Shown piece by piece: positions 18,781 through 25,564 of a stretch of 64,000 nt of DNA. The DNA is from Ensifer adhaerens. GTDB lineage: Bacteria > Pseudomonadota > Alphaproteobacteria > Rhizobiales > Rhizobiaceae. Both the position numbers and the translations under genes were made by a program. The stretch covers positions 682,001 through 746,000 of the forward strand of contig NZ_CP118610.1 of assembly GCF_028993555.1 (NCBI RefSeq), read 5' to 3'. The notes beneath the pieces are model-generated. The model ran no database searches. It worked only from the letters and a program-made list of their open reading frames with translations, and had not been told where the DNA came from. Position 1 is the stretch's first letter. Each line of letters starts with the position of its first letter.

Positions 18781-19455
18781 ATGCGCCCACACGAGACCGT
18801 GCCCTATGACCAGTGGATCGAACGCAGCCCTGAGGAGATGGCGACGCGGGCCGCTGACTTCTACGAAGAGATCAACCGTCGCCGGACCACACGCTATTTC
18901 AGCGATCGCGCGGTGCCGCGGGAAGTGATCGAAACCTGCCTGAAGGCGGCCGGCACGGCTCCGAGTGGTGCCAATCATCAGCCCTGGCATTTTACTGTCA
19001 TAGAAAGTGCCGCGATCAAGGCTAAGGTGCGCCGCGCGGCGGAAGAGGAAGAGCGCGTCTTCTATCGGGACAAGGCACCTCAGGAATGGCTCGACGCATT
19101 GGCGCCGCTCGGAACGGACGAGGACAAGCCATTCCTTGAAACCGCACCCTACCTGATCGTTATCTTCTCGCAAAAGCGCGGCGGGCCCAACCCGGGCGAC
19201 CTGAAGAAGAACTACTACATCAATGAAAGCGTCGGTATCGCCACGGGCATCCTGATCACGGCGCTGCACCATGCCGGGCTCGCGACGCTCACCCATACGC
19301 CAGCGCCGATGAATTTCCTCAACGAGATCTGCGGCAGACCGGAAAGTGAAAAGCCGTTCCTGATCCTGGTTGTCGGCTATCCGGCCCCGGATGCAACCGT
19401 TCCGGTCGCCGGCAAGGCGAAGAAGCCGCTCGATCAGATCTCGAACTGGCTCTAG
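18781..19455 (+). CDS. Nitroreductase family flavoprotein
   Basis: A 224-residue FMN enzyme. [18 protein letters not shown] and [15 protein letters not shown] form the FMN-binding N-terminus, and [30 protein letters not shown] follows. It is close to the iodotyrosine deiodinase-like/BluB-like branch of nitroreductases. It would reduce nitro or quinone compounds with NAD(P)H; the true substrate is unknown. The ATG at 18781 follows GGAGGAG. Confidence 0.88.
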
Positions 19456-19497
19456 CGCTAGTTCATCCGCTTCGAGCCGCGTCCTAGGCCGCGTTTT

Positions 19498-20085
19498 TCA
19501 ATCGACATTCGCGCTTTCATTCGCCTGGTGCTCGTGTCCGTAGAGCGCGAGAAAGCCGTCGAGTTCCGGTGAGCCGAGGCCAAGGCCGTGCAGGATCTCG
19601 CCGGCAAAGCTGATCGGTGCGGTTCCCGCGGCGGTGACGACATGACCGCTGCGCAGCGCCTGAGGCTGATTGCGGTAATGCAGCCTGCCGCGATAGCCGG
19701 GTAGCGCGGCAAGGCTTTCGGCGCTGTTGCCGGTGTGGTCGATACCGTTGAGAAGACCGCTTGCTGCGAGTGCATTGACGCCGCCGCAAATGGCCGCGAC
19801 CACCCGTCTGTCGCGATCGAATGCGCGGATCGTTGATGAGAAATCGGGAGCCTCATTCGTGTCCCAGATCGAGCCGCCGCAGATCACCAACCCGTCGAAG
19901 CCCGCAGGGTCGAGCGCGTCGATCGACAGATGTGCCGAGACGTCGAGCCCGCCCATCGACGTCACGCGTGCGCCGTCCGCGGTGGCAACCTCGATATCGA
20001 TACCGAGATGGGTGCGCGCCGCCGCCATCAACAGCGCACATTCCCAATCCGCGAAGCCTTCACAGAGCACGATCGCTAGACGCAT
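19498..20085 (-). CDS. DJ-1/PfpI family protein
   Basis: A 195-residue class I glutamine amidotransferase-like protein. The nucleophile elbow is AAICGGVNAL with Cys100, and a Glu in FADWE (about residue 15) is the usual partner. LVICGGSIWD is the preceding strand. Family members act as glyoxalases, deglycases or chaperones; the present role is unknown. It starts 10 bases after the GNAT gene's stop on the same strand, so it shares that gene's attenuated transcript. Confidence 0.88.
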   Translation of the reverse strand: MRLAIVLCEGFADWECALLMAAARTHLGIDIEVATADGARVTSMGGLDVSAHLSIDALDPAGFDGLVICGGSIWDTNEAPDFSSTIRAFDRDRRVVAAICGGVNALAASGLLNGIDHTGNSAESLAALPGYRGRLHYRNQPQALRSGHVVTAAGTAPISFAGEILHGLGLGSPELDGFLALYGHEHQANESANVD

Positions 20086-20095
20086 CGGTCCGTCC

Positions 20096-20599
20096 TCACC
20101 CAAGCTTCTGCATATAGCGCATGCCGGTCACCGGGCGAGGCACGAAGCGTTCGGATTCGTAGAAATGATGCGCCTGGAAGTTGCCGGTGGCGGCGCTGAC
20201 CGAAAGGAAGTCGCAGCCGGCCATCTTCGCCTGCTCGCGCGCCTTGGCAACGAGGTGGCGGCCGATGCCCGTGCCGCGGTTTTCGGGGCGAACGAAGAGG
20301 TGATGCAGTTCCATGCCGCGTGCACCCTCGGCAGCCCGGTAGACCGGCACCAGGATCGCGTAACCGATCAGCCGGCTGCCGGCCTCGGCAACGAGTGCTG
20401 TGATCCAGGGCGTGCGGCCGAAGAGGTCGCGCTCAAGCTGTTCCGGCGTGATCGGCGCGGCATCGCCGTGGTGGGCGGCAAGCTCGGCGATCATCTCGCG
20501 CAGTTCCGGCAGGTCGCGCTGCTTGGCGCAGCGGATCGTGACCATCGGCGGTCGTGTCGCTGGGACAGGATGAAGGGTAGGGATGGCGGTCTGTAGCAT
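20096..20599 (-). CDS. GNAT family N-acetyltransferase behind an attenuator
   Basis: A 167-residue protein with a full GNAT fold. LVAEAGSRLIGYAILVPVYR is followed by LHHLFVRPENRGTGIGRHLVAKA (acetyl-CoA loop RGTGIG) and the C-terminal TGNFQAHHFYESERFVPRP. The acceptor is unknown. The ATG at 20599 follows AGGAGCCC; an internal Met at 20545 would also leave an intact fold. Upstream lie a leader peptide, antiterminator, terminator and a hairpin over its own ribosome binding site (20605-20777). Expression is thus probably induced by ribosome stalling. It is followed by the DJ-1/PfpI gene. Confidence 0.88.
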   Translation of the reverse strand: MLQTAIPTLHPVPATRPPMVTIRCAKQRDLPELREMIAELAAHHGDAAPITPEQLERDLFGRTPWITALVAEAGSRLIGYAILVPVYRAAEGARGMELHHLFVRPENRGTGIGRHLVAKAREQAKMAGCDFLSVSAATGNFQAHHFYESERFVPRPVTGMRYMQKLG

Positions 20600-20604
20600 G
20601 TCTG

Positions 20605-20635
20605 GGCTCCTCGGGTTTTGTCGCCATCAGGAGCC
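20605..20635 (-). promoter_or_regulatory. Hairpin sequestering the GNAT ribosome binding site
   Basis: On the minus strand, GGCTCC (20635-20630) pairs with GGAGCC (20610-20605), which contains the GGAG of the GNAT ribosome binding site. CCTGATGGCG (20631-20622) in the loop is a perfect complement of CGCCATCAGG (20661-20652) in the terminator hairpin. The two elements can therefore exchange partners in read-through RNA. Confidence 0.55.
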
Positions 20636-20640
20636 GGAAA

Positions 20641-20663
20641 AACAAAAGCCGCCTGATGGCGGC
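20641..20663 (-). terminator. Attenuator terminator upstream of the GNAT gene
   Basis: On the minus strand, GCCGCC (20663-20658) and GGCGGC (20653-20648) pair around an ATCA loop, followed by TTTTGTTTTT (20647-20638). It lies between the leader ORF and the GNAT start. It could also serve the upstream merR gene, but its fit with the antiterminator argues for attenuation. Confidence 0.8.
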
Positions 20664-20689
20664 CTTGTTGAATATGATCAGCAGGCCGC
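20659..20689 (-). promoter_or_regulatory. Antiterminator stem
   Basis: On the minus strand, GCGGCCT (20689-20683) is perfectly complementary to AGGCCGC (20665-20659), which includes most of the terminator's 5' arm. The two structures are mutually exclusive. The antiterminator begins 2 bases after the leader stop codon, so a ribosome that finishes the leader would mask it and allow termination. Confidence 0.7.
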
Positions 20690-20691
20690 TC

Positions 20692-20742
20692 CTATCGGAA
20701 CAGCCAAAAATACACGCGGCAAATGGGTGCGTTCTTGATCAT
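20692..20742 (-). CDS. Leader peptide, 16 residues, probably leaderless
   Basis: ATG at 20742 to TAG at 20692 encodes MIKNAPICRVYFWLFR. The Tyr-Phe-Trp-Leu-Phe-Arg end is a plausible stalling stretch. There is no ribosome binding site, but the promoter places the transcription start at about the A of the ATG. The known S. meliloti trpL leader is likewise translated from a transcript that starts at its AUG. The peptide ends just before the antiterminator. Its mixed aromatic content fits sensing of a general translation block better than sensing of one amino acid; this is inference. Confidence 0.6.
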   Translation of the reverse strand: MIKNAPICRVYFWLFR

Positions 20743-20748
20743 GGGCGC

Positions 20749-20777
20749 TAGATTGTTCGTTTTCGAGATTTTGTCAA
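20749..20777 (-). promoter_or_regulatory. Promoter of the attenuated GNAT operon
   Basis: On the minus strand, TTGACA (20777-20772), a 17-base spacer, and AATCTA (20754-20749) form a sigma-70-like promoter. The expected start site, about 7 bases after the -10 box, falls on the leader ATG at 20742. It lies downstream of the merR stop (20815), so the GNAT unit is independent of merR. Confidence 0.65.
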
Positions 20778-20814
20778 CCGGGATTTTGCGCGCGCTTGAA
20801 CTAAGTTCGCAGCC

Positions 20815-21228
20815 CTAGTGTTCGCTGTCGCACATCGAGTGGTCGGCGAGCGCCCGGATCACATAGCAGTCGCCCACCGTGTGATTGCCGTCGCAGGCGA
20901 CGATGCGTTCCAGTTCTTGCTCCAGTTTCTTCAGCCGGGCGATCTTTTCGCGAACGGTCGCCAGATGCTCGCTGGCGATGCGGTCGGCTTCGCCGCAGGG
21001 GCGTTCCGGATGCTGGCTGAGGGCGAGCAGATCCCGGATCGATTCGATCGAGAGGCCGAGATCGCGGGCGTGGCGGATGAAGGCCAGTCGCTCGAGTTCG
21101 CTCTTCTCATAGCGCCGCTGGTTGCCTTCGGACCGCTCTGGCGCTGCGATCAGCCCCATCTGCTCGTAATAGCGGATGGTCGGAATTTTGACGCCGGTGC
21201 GCCGCGAAAGATCGCCGATGGAATACAT
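20815..21228 (-). CDS. MerR family regulator, cysteine/histidine-rich
   Basis: A 137-residue MerR protein with the N-terminal HTH MYSIGDLSRRTGVKIPTIRY and a dimerising helix (about 83-110). Cys78, Cys112, Cys121 and Cys133, with His116, His130 and His137, could bind a metal as in ZntR/CadR/CueR relatives. Spacing does not match any of these exactly, so the ligand is open. No metal pump is adjacent. A 21-base palindrome just upstream (21242-21262) is the likely operator. Confidence 0.88.
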   Translation of the reverse strand: MYSIGDLSRRTGVKIPTIRYYEQMGLIAAPERSEGNQRRYEKSELERLAFIRHARDLGLSIESIRDLLALSQHPERPCGEADRIASEHLATVREKIARLKKLEQELERIVACDGNHTVGDCYVIRALADHSMCDSEH

Positions 21229-21241
21229 GTCCGTCTCAAAC

Positions 21242-21262
21242 CTATAGCTTCTGGAGCAATAG
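21242..21262. promoter_or_regulatory. MerR operator-like palindrome
   Basis: CTATAGCT (21242-21249) and AGCAATAG (21255-21262) form a near-perfect inverted repeat with a 5-base centre, 13 bases before the merR ATG. TTGACA at about 21284-21279 (minus strand) could be the -35 box. An operator lying between promoter elements is typical of MerR control. Confidence 0.5.
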
Positions 21263-21298
21263 ATAATGGCGTACCGCAGTGTGTCAATGGTGGGGTGA

Positions 21299-21324
21299 GG
21301 GAAGGGCCCGTCTGGGCCCTTCCC
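21299..21324 (-). terminator. Strong GC hairpin between merR and the hydrolase gene
   Basis: GGGAAGGGCCC (21299-21309) pairs with GGGCCCTTCCC (21314-21324) around a GTCT loop, giving an 11-bp stem. It lies 41 bases downstream of the minus-strand hydrolase stop. There is no T-run, so it is a stabilising or Rho-linked 3' end rather than a classic terminator. Confidence 0.6.
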
Positions 21325-21364
21325 GAATGCAGAGACTGTGCGTTGGCAACAATCCTGGCCCGGC

Positions 21365-22246
21365 TCAGCCGCAGCCAGGTCTGCTACCGAGGAACGAGAG
21401 CAAGACCTCGTCGAAGAGCTCGCTTTCCTCCAGTTGCGGCGTGTGCCCGCTCTTTTCGAAGGTTCGCACCGTCAGGTCCGCGAAGTTTCCCCGGTACTCG
21501 TCCCAGGTGGAAGCCGGGGCGACGAGATAGTCCGACCGGCCAAGGGCAAGCAGCACGGGCGCCTTCAGTGTGCTTAACCCCTTGCGGATATCGATGTCCC
21601 GAAAGACCTCACCCCAGAGATGATCGAAGACCGCGTTGTTGACGGTGACATCGAGCCAAAGCGGCGCTGCGTCGAAATCCGGCCGATGCCAGCTCTTGGC
21701 ACCAAGTCGGATCAGCAGCGATTTGAAGCGGTCCTCCGGCCGCGCGGCGATGTCAGTGCCGAGCGCGGCCATGTCCCGCTCGAAGATCGCCTTGCGCTCA
21801 GGCGAGACCGTCTCCTCCCAGACCTGATCGGCAAGCGCCATGTGGCGGGCCGAATGGCTCGGTCCGGTTCCAACCATGACCACGCGGGTGACGCGCCCCG
21901 GATGCCGTTTGGCATATTCGAGCGCCATGTAGCCATGGCCGGAATGGCCGAGGATGGCAAAGCGCTCGAGACCGAGATGCGCGCGCAGCCGCTCGATATC
22001 GGTAAGCACCGTCTCGAAACCGATGTCGCCAGAGGCGTATTCGGTTCGAGCCGGGGCAAAACCACGGTGGTCAACGAAGATCAGCCCCAGCTTCTCACGA
22101 AGCTTCCAGGAGAAGGTGGGCGGGTAATAGATGGTGCTGCCGATGATGAGCAGCGGCATGCCTCTGCCCTCGATCGTATAGCCAAGGTCGAAGGGGCCGG
22201 CGCGAAGGCTGCCGGTTTCGGAAACGAATCCGCCTGTGCTTGTCAT
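21365..22246 (-). CDS. Alpha/beta hydrolase
   Basis: A 293-residue hydrolase. The nucleophile elbow is LGHSGHG with Ser102. The acid is probably the Asp in LGRSDYLV and the catalytic His is in FEKSGHTPQLEE. HRGFAP after strand 4 gives the oxyanion region. It is close to proline iminopeptidase or haloalkane-type hydrolases by layout, substrate unknown. It lacks a signal peptide, so it is cytoplasmic. Confidence 0.88.
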   Translation of the reverse strand: MTSTGGFVSETGSLRAGPFDLGYTIEGRGMPLLIIGSTIYYPPTFSWKLREKLGLIFVDHRGFAPARTEYASGDIGFETVLTDIERLRAHLGLERFAILGHSGHGYMALEYAKRHPGRVTRVVMVGTGPSHSARHMALADQVWEETVSPERKAIFERDMAALGTDIAARPEDRFKSLLIRLGAKSWHRPDFDAAPLWLDVTVNNAVFDHLWGEVFRDIDIRKGLSTLKAPVLLALGRSDYLVAPASTWDEYRGNFADLTVRTFEKSGHTPQLEESELFDEVLLSFLGSRPGCG

Positions 22247-23060: not shown

Positions 23061-25394
23061 TCAGGGCAGGGTATAGGCGATGATGTAATCGCCCGGCCTC
23101 GTGCCGACGGAACCGTGGCCTCCAGCGACGATCAGCACATATTGCTTGTCGCCGACCGCATAGCTCATCGGTGTCGACTGGCCGCCGGCGGGCAGGCGTG
23201 CCTCCCAGAGCTGGCGGCCGGTCGTCAGATCATAGGCGCGCAGATAGTCGTCGACGGCGGCGCCGAGAAAGGCGACGCCGCCCTTGGTGATCATCGGTCC
23301 GCCGATGCCGGGCACGCCGACCTTGAACGGCAGCGGCAGCGGCGCCATGTCCTCGACCGTACCGTTCTTATGCTTGTAGGCGATCTTGCCGGTTCGAAGA
23401 TCGGCGCCGGCGACATAACCCCATGGCGGTGCCTGGCAGGGAATGCCGAGCGGCCCGAGGAAGGGGCCCATGAAAACGCCATAGGGCGCGCCGTCGTTGC
23501 GGTTGAGGCCCTGTTCCGATCCCTTCTCGTCCTGTCCCTTGGGCGGAACCTGGTCGCGAGGCACGAGACGCGAGGTGAAGGCAAGGTAGGTCGGCATGCC
23601 GAACATCACCTGCCGTTCCGGATCGACCGCGACCGATCCCCAGTTGAACGTGCCAAAGTTGCCGGGATAGACCAGCGTTCCCTCTATAGATGGCGGAGTA
23701 TAGCGCCCTTCGTATTTCAACGACCGGAACGCGATGCGGCACGCAAGCTGGTCGAAGAGGGTGATGCCCCACATGTCCTTCTCCTGCAAAGGTGCAGGCA
23801 TGAAGGTGAGGCCGGAGACCGGCTGCGTCGGCGCGGTGAAGTCCTCACGGATTGCGCCACCTGGCGCCTGAACCTCGTCGACCGCGATGATCGGCTCGCC
23901 GCTTCTGCGGTCGAGCACATAGATATCGCCCTGTTTTGTCGGCCCGACCAACGCCGGGACCACGGTGCCGTCTTCCTTGGTGATGTCGAGCAGAGCCGGC
24001 TGCGCTGGCACGTCCATGTCCCAGAGGTCGTGATGCACGGTCTGCCGTACCCAGCGCACGGCGCCGGAACTGATGTCGAGCGCGACGATCGAGGAGGAGT
24101 ATTTCTCGACGTGCTCGCTGCGGCCCATGCCAAGCTGGTCCGGCACCTGGTTGCCCATGGGGATGTAGACGAGGCCGAGCGCTTCGTCATAGCTGAACAC
24201 TGACCAGCTGTTCGGCGAGTTGGTCGTGTAGGTCTGGCCTTCGGGAAGAGGCGTCGTCACATCCGGGTTGCCGCTGTCCCAGTTCCAGATCAGTGCGCCG
24301 GAGTTGATGTCGAAGGCACGGATGACGCCGGATTGCTCGTGCGTCGAGTAGTTGTCGTTGACGGCGCCGCCGATGATGATCTTGCCGGCAACCGCTACCG
24401 GCGGTGAGGTCGAATAGTAGTAGCCTGCCGGATTGTACTTCATGCCCGCTTCGAGATGCAGCACGCCGTTATCGGCAAAGCTGGTGCAGACGGCGCCGGT
24501 TGCCGCATCGAGTGCGATCAGGCGTGCGTCCGAGGTCGGCAGGTAAACCCGCTCGGCGCAGGGACTGCCCGGCGCGGCAGCCGGATCGGCCCAATAGGTG
24601 ACACCGCGGCAGGTCTGGTGCTGGCGGTCGGGGTTCATGCCCGAGTTGGAATCATACTTCCATTTCTCTTCGCCGGTCGCGGCATCGAGCGCGATCGCCC
24701 AGTTGTGCGGCGTGCAGGCATAGAGCGTGTCTTTGATCTTGAGCGGCGTGACCTGATATGTCGTCTCCCCGACGTCGTCAGGCCGTTTGACGTCGCCGGT
24801 CTGGTACTGCCAGGCAACCCTCAGATTGCCGACATTGTCCGGCGTGATCTGGTCAAGGGGCGCGTATCTTTGACCGAACGGCGTACGCCCATACTGGTGC
24901 CATTCGCCCGGAGGCACCGAGCCACCGAGCGGAGGGTTGGCGGCAACGACGTCGCTTGGCAGGTCGCCGCGGATATCGTGCGGATCGAGCGTCAGGGCAT
25001 AGCCGGCGACGCCGACCGAGATCAGCACGGCAATTGCGAGCGGCCAGGCGCTCACCGCATAGCGCTCCCCCGTTGGACTCTCGAAGCCGAGCGGCCGACG
25101 GACAGACGGCAGCATCAGCCAGAGCCCCAGCAGTACGATGACACCGCCCCGCGGCCCAAGCTGCCACCAGTCGAAACCGACCTCCGAGATCGCCCAGCCA
25201 AGCGAGCCGACGATGATGAACGCATAGAGCCAGATCGCCGCCGATTTCCGCATGAATAGGAGCACGGCCGTCAGCAGGAAACCGATACCAACGACGAGGT
25301 AGTCGGGGCTGCCGCCGAGCACCAGCAGCTTGGCCCCACCGCCTCCAAGCACGAGGCCGATAAGGGCGAAGACGATGGCCGTCAGGATGAGCAT
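23061..25394 (-). CDS. gcd: Quinoprotein glucose dehydrogenase, membrane-bound
   Basis: A 777-residue protein. The N-terminal membrane domain has about five helices (residues 1-140). A periplasmic eight-bladed PQQ propeller follows, with repeated tryptophan-docking motifs such as ALDAATGEEKWKYD, AFDINSGALIWNWD and YDLTTGRQLWEARLP. Gcd oxidises glucose to gluconolactone and passes electrons to ubiquinone. The ATG at 25394 begins directly with helix 1 and follows GGGAG; upstream in-frame residues are polar. No PQQ synthesis genes are in the window. Confidence 0.95.
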   Translation of the reverse strand: MLILTAIVFALIGLVLGGGGAKLLVLGGSPDYLVVGIGFLLTAVLLFMRKSAAIWLYAFIIVGSLGWAISEVGFDWWQLGPRGGVIVLLGLWLMLPSVRRPLGFESPTGERYAVSAWPLAIAVLISVGVAGYALTLDPHDIRGDLPSDVVAANPPLGGSVPPGEWHQYGRTPFGQRYAPLDQITPDNVGNLRVAWQYQTGDVKRPDDVGETTYQVTPLKIKDTLYACTPHNWAIALDAATGEEKWKYDSNSGMNPDRQHQTCRGVTYWADPAAAPGSPCAERVYLPTSDARLIALDAATGAVCTSFADNGVLHLEAGMKYNPAGYYYSTSPPVAVAGKIIIGGAVNDNYSTHEQSGVIRAFDINSGALIWNWDSGNPDVTTPLPEGQTYTTNSPNSWSVFSYDEALGLVYIPMGNQVPDQLGMGRSEHVEKYSSSIVALDISSGAVRWVRQTVHHDLWDMDVPAQPALLDITKEDGTVVPALVGPTKQGDIYVLDRRSGEPIIAVDEVQAPGGAIREDFTAPTQPVSGLTFMPAPLQEKDMWGITLFDQLACRIAFRSLKYEGRYTPPSIEGTLVYPGNFGTFNWGSVAVDPERQVMFGMPTYLAFTSRLVPRDQVPPKGQDEKGSEQGLNRNDGAPYGVFMGPFLGPLGIPCQAPPWGYVAGADLRTGKIAYKHKNGTVEDMAPLPLPFKVGVPGIGGPMITKGGVAFLGAAVDDYLRAYDLTTGRQLWEARLPAGGQSTPMSYAVGDKQYVLIVAGGHGSVGTRPGDYIIAYTLP

Positions 25395-25564
25395 GATGGA
25401 AACTCCCGTATTGAAGAACGGTGCCGCGGCACGGTTTTTTCCATAACGCCGGTCCCCGTTCGGGGCCGCGTGAGACAGGTTGGTTTCGGAATTGGCGGTC
25501 GCAAGCAAAGTCGCGGCAGCCTGGTGTGGAATGGCGCGCCTGGCGCCCTTACCGCTACGGCGCC
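25395..25564. other. Intergenic region upstream of gcd
   Basis: With 25659-25927 this makes about 530 bases without a gene. Near gcd is a perfect 12-base palindrome GTGCCGCGGCAC (25421-25432), followed on the plus strand by GGTTTTTTCC. It would act as a plus-strand terminator, but no plus-strand gene precedes it. The gcd promoter must lie here. A dispersed repeat follows. Confidence 0.5.

Follow-up and report, generated by a model that had tools for sequence, protein, structure and literature searches.

What does a 16-codon open reading frame (ORF) sense when it stands, together with two overlapping stems and a T run, ahead of a gene for a GNAT N-acetyltransferase? This arrangement occurs on the minus strand of the window analysed here, a stretch of 64,000 nucleotides from Ensifer adhaerens. 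A first-pass annotation had placed a leader ORF, an antiterminator, a terminator and a T run in front of the GNAT gene, and each of these parts is found, base for base, at the position claimed for it (Table 1). On the evidence of sequence, we consider it very probable that the region acts as a ribosome-dependent transcription attenuator, one whose control site combines Tyr, Phe and Trp codons. The observations behind this reading are the elements themselves, their conservation, the occurrence of changes on both sides of several helices (P0, arm 4 and the hairpin over the Shine-Dalgarno sequence), and the link between the set of control codons and the gene that follows.

Parts of the leader region

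The control codons lie just ahead of mutually exclusive stems, the antiterminator overlaps the 5' arm of the terminator, and a T run follows, as is expected for an attenuator. Additional parts that the first-pass annotation lacked are the TTGACA element, a protector stem (P1), a pairing that includes the start codon (P0), an arm downstream of the T run (arm 4) and a hairpin over the GNAT Shine-Dalgarno sequence.

Table 1. Coordinates of the attenuator parts and of the genes downstream
Feature	Position in window	Strand	Basis or remark
Leader ORF MIKNAPICRVYFWLFR plus stop	20692..20742	-	ATG 20742-20740, TAG 20694-20692
Control codons Tyr-Phe-Trp (TAT TTT TGG), leader codons 11-13	20704..20712	-	Sequence reading
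-35 element TTGACA	20772..20777	-	First T 35 nt before A of leader ATG
P0 5' arm ATGATCA, includes leader start codon	20736..20742	-	Pairs with 20680-20674 in fold
P0 3' arm TGATCAT, inside antiterminator loop	20674..20680	-	Fold
P1 (protector) 5' arm GGCTGTTCC, last leader codons	20697..20705	-	Fold
P1 (protector) 3' arm GGAGCGGCC, overlaps antiterminator 5' arm	20684..20692	-	Fold
Antiterminator 5' arm GCGGCCT	20683..20689	-	Sequence
Antiterminator 3' arm AGGCCGC	20659..20665	-	Sequence
Terminator hairpin GCCGCC-ATCA-GGCGGC	20648..20663	-	Arms 20663-20658 with 20653-20648
T run TTTTGTTTTT	20638..20647	-	Sequence
Arm 4 CCTGATGGC, complement of terminator loop region GCCATCAGG (20660-20652)	20623..20631	-	Helix conservation
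5' arm GGCTCCT of hairpin over GNAT ribosome-binding site	20629..20635	-	Arm-pairing energies
3' arm AGGAGCC, holds GNAT Shine-Dalgarno	20605..20611	-	Arm-pairing energies
GNAT N-acetyltransferase gene, conserved target	20096..20599	-	Pfam PF00583, E 3e-15
DJ-1/PfpI gene, optional second cistron	19498..20085	-	Pfam PF01965, E 2.9e-23

The 106-nt RNA has a predicted folding energy of -41.3 kcal/mol, versus -27.1 (sd 3.2) for dinucleotide shuffles (z -4.5), and outperforms 200 of 200 of these. However, a pattern scan of positions 19000-22000 found one terminator-like site versus 2.6 expected by chance. The terminator by itself is thus at chance level, and the case for an attenuator therefore rests on conservation. 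No Rfam family reached its gathering score anywhere in the window, and the sub-threshold matches on a 211-nt stretch (RNAI, Phe_leader, isrK and others) were set aside as chance.

Conservation of the leader with the GNAT gene

The GNAT protein and a covariance model of the GNAT leaders (R1) were each searched in 297 Rhizobiaceae genomes. The protein is present in 68 of them (E <= 1e-20), and the leader is found in all 68. A strong R1 match (E <= 1e-8) lies just upstream of the gene in 67; in the remaining genome (G460), which R1 missed, the leader, TTGACA and terminator were read by eye and the antiterminator was not located. A protein search of 61 genomes gave the same picture, with a leader at 21 of 21 close GNAT relatives (E <= 2.7e-50). 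The weak relatives L022-L030 (E 2e-16 to 2e-10) lack an aromatic leader and were excluded from the ortholog counts.

For a collection of loci from named organisms, the best 80 of 348 GNAT relatives were taken for leader reading. These span Ensifer, Sinorhizobium, Pararhizobium, Rhizobium, Neorhizobium, Agrobacterium, Ciceribacter and other Rhizobiales. All 80 carry a leader with contiguous Tyr, Phe and Trp codons, and in all 80 TTGACA starts 34-37 nt before the ATG. The GNAT of the window shares 98% of its residues with the proteins from Ensifer sesbaniae and Ensifer sp. Root278 and as many as 96% with E. adhaerens versions, and a Sinorhizobium meliloti copy sits on pSymB. The attenuator reading of the first-pass annotation, which proposed conservation before orthologous GNAT genes as its check, thus stands: the leader is kept in 68/68 GNAT-holding Rhizobiaceae genomes and 80/80 named loci.

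Elsewhere in the order, outside the family, the GNAT occurs in just 4 of 199 genomes (E <= 1e-25). One locus (L232/L266; G170, family f22) encodes a GNAT relative of 38% identity. The leader-like ORF in front of it, MNLVQNHLNSYHRRLN, is preceded by TTGACA, is accompanied by a terminator-like stem, and contains Tyr and neither Phe nor Trp.

A conserved set of aromatic control codons

Contiguous Tyr, Phe and Trp codons are present, in three orders, in 67 of the 68 GNAT-holding Rhizobiaceae genomes. Among 85 parsed GNAT loci, a set that counts some genomes twice, 74 read Y-F-W (codons 11-13 of 16 or 12-14 of 17), 10 read W-Y-F (codons 10-12 of 16) and one reads F-F-W (L016). Among the named loci (best 80 of 348 relatives) the order is YFW in 65 and WYF in 15. 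The Trp-first order represents one clade, comprising 10 of the 85 parsed and 15 of the 80 named loci, and G460 has Trp-Phe-Tyr-Tyr. Of the 68 genomes, only G475 (L120) departs clearly from this rule: its leader reads R-Y-F-T, with Thr replacing Trp, ahead of a full-length GNAT. The leader without Tyr (L016, genome G014) precedes a frameshifted GNAT split over two frames, a case in which switch and target have decayed jointly.

The probability of meeting adjacent Y, F and W codons at a given place by chance is about 1.1e-4. The 85 parsed loci encode 51 distinct leader peptides, and the residues ahead of the triplet vary. The Phe codon is TTT in 85 of 85 loci, yet 11 ORFs of the window use 32 TTT versus 146 TTC codons. 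A point against a composite control site is that one codon per amino acid is weak beside the runs found in classical leaders. However, because clades differ in codon order but retain the set, and because the preceding residues vary, the three aromatic aminoacyl-tRNAs are probably sensed as a set.

Related Tyr and Trp attenuators

The R1 model has a second match in the same genome, outside the window, at C1:1828366-1828476 (L061 867-977; E 8.9e-10). Its leader, MINTTLIAATYYATSP, carries Tyr-Tyr at codons 11-12 and precedes a second tyrS. Five of the 297 Rhizobiaceae genomes have such a Tyr-leader copy at E <= 1e-8. It is followed by tyrS in G000, G009 and G006 and by a truncated tyrS in G651, and in G012, where no tyrS lies within 1.5 kb, the leader is a relic. 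The tyrS behind the Tyr leader is a second copy, in that G000, G009, G006, G366, G309 and G242 each hold another TyrRS, 49-57% identical. A scripted search of the 300 bases upstream of the main tyrS found no Tyr leader with a terminator in seven of seven genomes, including the single tyrS of G966; the main tyrS of the E. adhaerens genome (C1:1629703-1630932) is without one. The gene under the Tyr switch would thus be a spare synthetase, which is what a defence against blocked charging leads one to expect.

The trpE leader of the same genome, MENARNISIWWWAR, has Trp-Trp-Trp and a layout like that of the GNAT leader. Tyr-Tyr attenuators were also seen before tyrA-like prephenate dehydrogenase genes (L049, L052 and L222), and at L227 a Trp-Trp attenuator precedes trpS, the genes being named by eye in each case. 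In a broader search, 176 of 397 genomes matched at E <= 0.1, nearly all of them weakly, and 30 loci and two more places in the E. adhaerens genome were read. Weak R1 matches were dropped after reading (L043, L044, L047, L048, L062, L053, L123 and L124) or on a scripted leader test alone (L050, L051, L054-L060, L125-L127 and L129).

The existence of attenuators with the same architecture that place Tyr-Tyr before tyrS or tyrA, and Trp before trpE or trpS, argues that the GNAT leader reads aromatic tRNA charging. It also bears on the proposal that the leader encodes an arrest peptide that senses an antibiotic or stress, in which a drug in the ribosomal tunnel would stall translation at the aromatic stretch and thereby free the antiterminator. 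That proposal draws on the nature of the target, since the GNAT superfamily is rich in drug-modifying enzymes and the weak NCBIfam matches of this protein, none near its cut-off, include aminoglycoside and streptothricin acetyltransferases. However, arrest by a drug should preserve the sequence of the peptide rather than a codon set. The diversity of leader peptides, with variable residues ahead of the triplet, the changes of triplet order (YFW, WYF, WFYY) with the set kept, and the agreement between codons and gene in related leaders (YY for tyrS, WWW for trpE) make arrest by a drug improbable. The first-pass annotation had favoured a translation inhibitor or stress over a single amino acid as the signal. 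Its exclusion of a single amino acid agrees with our data, whereas the evidence points to the three aromatic aminoacyl-tRNAs in place of an inhibitor or stress.

Recurrence in other alphaproteobacterial families

A second covariance model, R2, was built with TATTAT and TATTTTTGG leaders and consequently favours TATTTT; a leading Trp codon and the type of downstream gene are independent of this bias. At E <= 1e-4, R2 matches 11 of 385 alphaproteobacterial genomes. Its matches include YF leaders before tyrS, YY before tyrA, WW before trpS, and W-Y-F before GNAT genes in two families (f118 and f144), with L229 discarded as a chance match. In f118, 70 of 75 genomes match at E <= 0.01. The difference between this rate and 11/385 overall indicates that the class is patchy, or that the model and threshold are too narrow.

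Thirty loci of f118 were read, and 29 have a W-Y-F leader. A GNAT gene lies directly downstream in 28 of these: 27 of the proteins, L240 included, resemble the L240 GNAT at E <= 1e-3, and the 28th locus is L235. The contig of the other W-Y-F leader (L248) ends before the downstream gene, and the remaining locus (L233) has a Tyr-Tyr leader before tyrS. The f118 GNAT (L240) is 32% identical to the Rhizobiaceae protein over 149 residues.

In f144, 18 genomes gave 13 R2 matches, of which seven (L269-L272, L274, L275 and L278) are chance terminators and were dropped. W-Y-F leaders precede a GNAT gene at L223 and L268 and a protein of 88-90 amino acids with a putative S4 domain at L228, L276 and L277, and an F-Y leader precedes tyrS at L273. 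The codon set is thus not tied to GNAT alone.

Free-standing S4-like proteins of 88-104 amino acids behind W-Y-F or Y-F leaders were noted at these three f144 loci and at L265/L226 (G953, f207). The L228 protein has weak matches to the S4 domain and the TyrRS C-terminal domain, below the Pfam cut-offs. Could these be small tRNA- or ribosome-binding proteins under aromatic attenuation?

Covariation of the helices and position of the promoter

Pairing energies of native arms were compared with those of arms swapped between sequences for 42 representatives of 120 distinct leaders, a control that does not remove relatedness among them. Native arms pair more strongly in P0 (-7.3 versus -6.3), P1 (-13.7 versus -11.6) and the helix of arm 4 (-17.7 versus -14.8). 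The values are nearly equal for the antiterminator (-13.8 versus -13.2) and identical for the terminator (-11.7 versus -11.7), whose cores are nearly invariant and give no covariation signal. Compensatory versions of P0 can be recognized by eye as ATGACA/TGTCAT in L120, TGATGAC/GTCATCA in L098, ATCGTCCC with GGGACGAT in L223, and ATGACC/GGTCAT in L224; P0 appears weak or absent in L221 and L225. The helix between arm 4 and the terminator loop has at least nine uninterrupted pairs in 101 of the 120 distinct leaders, and its loop positions are altered on both sides, as at one position with G-C in 49 and A-T in 48 of 105. The compensatory changes that the first-pass annotation called for are therefore present in part: P0, P1, the arm 4 helix and the Shine-Dalgarno hairpin vary on both sides, whereas the antiterminator and terminator cores hardly vary.

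Given the distance of TTGACA from the ATG and the usual promoter spacing, the transcript should start at or beside the leader ATG, producing a leaderless leader. A leaderless trp leader is known from S. meliloti. This promoter position, together with the sequestration of the start codon in P0, would tie expression to initiation on the leader, and might suggest a general sensor of translation capacity that responds to any slow elongation or to poor initiation at the leaderless ATG. Such a sensor is highly improbable in our estimation, because it leaves unexplained why 67 of 68 genomes have adjacent Tyr, Phe and Trp codons and why the codons of the related attenuators match the genes that follow them.

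A possible second layer of control

A recognizable GNAT start is present in 118 of the 120 distinct leaders. For 80 distinct cases, the hairpin over the Shine-Dalgarno sequence has a mean pairing energy of -12.0 kcal/mol with native arms, compared with -8.9 with swapped arms, a control that keeps relatedness, and -7.2 with shuffled arms. The energy falls below -5 kcal/mol in 77 of 80 native cases versus 88% of swapped arms. A second layer of control through arm 4 and this hairpin is therefore possible. In a read-through RNA that retains the terminator hairpin, the Shine-Dalgarno hairpin would stay closed. Once the antiterminator has formed, the freed terminator loop could take arm 4, which would loosen the Shine-Dalgarno hairpin.

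Equilibrium folds of 82 sequences in forced states gave a mean Shine-Dalgarno openness of 0.36 with the antiterminator forced versus 0.30. Openness is higher with the antiterminator in 59 of the 82, by more than 0.2 in 15, and in the RNA of the window it is unchanged (0.17 in both states). These calculations provide no thermodynamic proof of a second layer, as the hairpin is mostly closed at equilibrium in both states. With so slight an opening, a switch at this level would need to work kinetically.

Both arm 4 and the Shine-Dalgarno hairpin make sense for control in cis, which counts against another explanation, namely that the terminated RNA of about 105 nt and its 16-residue peptide are products acting in trans, with control of GNAT being secondary. 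The strong fold of the RNA is consistent with such a role, and the trp leader RNA and peptide of S. meliloti reportedly act in trans. However, the peptide is poorly conserved outside the control codons, and in each of the 68 GNAT-holding Rhizobiaceae genomes the element lies in cis to the gene. We judge a primary role in trans to be unlikely, while noting that cis control and trans action could both be true.

Proposed model for aromatic tRNA sensing

The start site, the stalling of the ribosome and the switching between structures that we infer for the attenuator would operate as follows. Transcription would start at the leader ATG. When all three aromatic tRNAs are charged, the ribosome would reach the stop codon and cover the antiterminator 5' arm, so that the terminator forms and an RNA of about 105 nt is released. 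If charged tRNA-Tyr, tRNA-Phe or tRNA-Trp is in short supply, the ribosome would instead wait at codon 11, 12 or 13. In this position it would cover the protector stem and leave the antiterminator arm free, the antiterminator would form, and GNAT (in some species also DJ-1) would be transcribed. Without translation of the leader, P0 and P1 are free to form, and termination would remain the default. Triggers would include inhibition of the shikimate pathway, aromatic starvation, aromatic analogues and inhibitors of the three synthetases.

Target enzyme and neighbouring genes

The solved sequences nearest to the GNAT are SSAT2 (2bei), an unnamed N-acetyltransferase (2fe7) and thialysine acetyltransferase (12jc), each at E about 2e-10. 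These are general GNAT relatives, and none of the characterized proteins is close to the enzyme. No characterized GNAT family among the NCBIfam equivalogs reached its curated cut-off, the best score being 51 bits versus the 250 required for HaaN. SSAT2 and thialysine acetyltransferase act on polyamines and on an amino-acid analogue. Our guess is that the GNAT removes an amino-acid analogue or synthetase inhibitor that blocks aromatic tRNA charging, a guess that fits these relatives and the spare TyrRS under the sister switch, without being proved by them.

The DJ-1 gene, which the first-pass annotation counted as a target together with GNAT, adjoins it in only part of the loci and is absent beside the S. 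meliloti copy. This patchy neighbourhood rules out DJ-1 as part of the conserved unit and as a general target. A search for a constant neighbour that might reveal the function of GNAT found none. Genes for a MerR protein and a cytochrome c lie near GNAT in many Rhizobiaceae loci, and neither was seen in the f118 and f144 regions, where ORF lists were judged by eye.

In the window, the MerR-type gene (20815-21228, minus strand) is of the type that adjoins the attenuator in many Rhizobiaceae loci, and its product is near CadR/PbrR, below the cut-off (117.6 of 151.45 bits). A large ORF at 23061-25508, also on the minus strand, resembles a PQQ dehydrogenase (glucose/quinate/shikimate) whose annotation lies close to the S. 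meliloti copy. It is named from likeness of position and from sequence by eye, and its link to aromatic metabolism is suggestive only.

A broader idea, made slightly more likely by the dispensable second tyrS behind the Tyr leader, is one that we put forward tentatively and would not yet expect to hold in full. Alphaproteobacteria might possess a recurrent alarm for the charging of all aromatic tRNAs, coupled to a detoxifying acetyltransferase or, in some lineages, to an S4-domain protein. A sister switch would be coupled to a spare TyrRS, and together they might counter plant or microbial toxins that act on the shikimate pathway or on aromatic synthetases, with a translation lock silencing leaky read-through RNA. 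Because divergent GNATs in three families stand behind this codon set, an orphan enzyme is linked to failed aromatic supply, and the uncharacterized protein gains a testable function. In model rhizobia such as S. meliloti, the system also bears on the sufficiency of single control codons, on leaderless leaders with a sequestered start, and on coupled transcriptional and translational control.

Comparison with known attenuators

Ribosome-dependent attenuation is an old theme. To our knowledge, the composite aromatic site, the GNAT target, the recurrence and the downstream arm are new, and we make no claim that they are absent from print. The closest parallel is the rhizobial trpE(G) leader trpL, a classical trp attenuator whose copy in the E. 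adhaerens genome was read here. Like the GNAT leader, it has a promoter position that implies a leaderless transcript, a short ORF in which a few codons separate the control codons from the stop, and GCGGC after the stop facing a terminator GCCGCC. It differs in having Trp codons only, with tryptophan synthesis as its target, whereas the GNAT leader has one codon each for Tyr, Phe and Trp. The Tyr attenuator of tyrS shares the ATGATC start, the 16 codons, the position of the control codons (11-12), the antiterminator, the terminator and the downstream arm. However, the Tyr attenuators of tyrS and tyrA carry Tyr-Tyr codons and precede a tyrosine gene.

The Rfam family Phe_leader (RF01859) is likewise a leader-peptide attenuator for an aromatic amino acid, but the GNAT leader is not a member (16.5 bits versus a gathering score of 55). 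Drug-inducible leaders of the erm and cat type resemble the GNAT leader in placing a leader peptide before a possible modifying enzyme. Those leaders keep their arrest sequence, whereas GNAT leaders keep a codon set and change its order. Classical attenuators respond to one amino acid, or to a few from a single pathway, and their targets are the corresponding biosynthetic or synthetase genes. In the system described here, single adjacent codons would read three amino acids with chorismate as their common branch point, and the target lies outside known amino-acid pathways.
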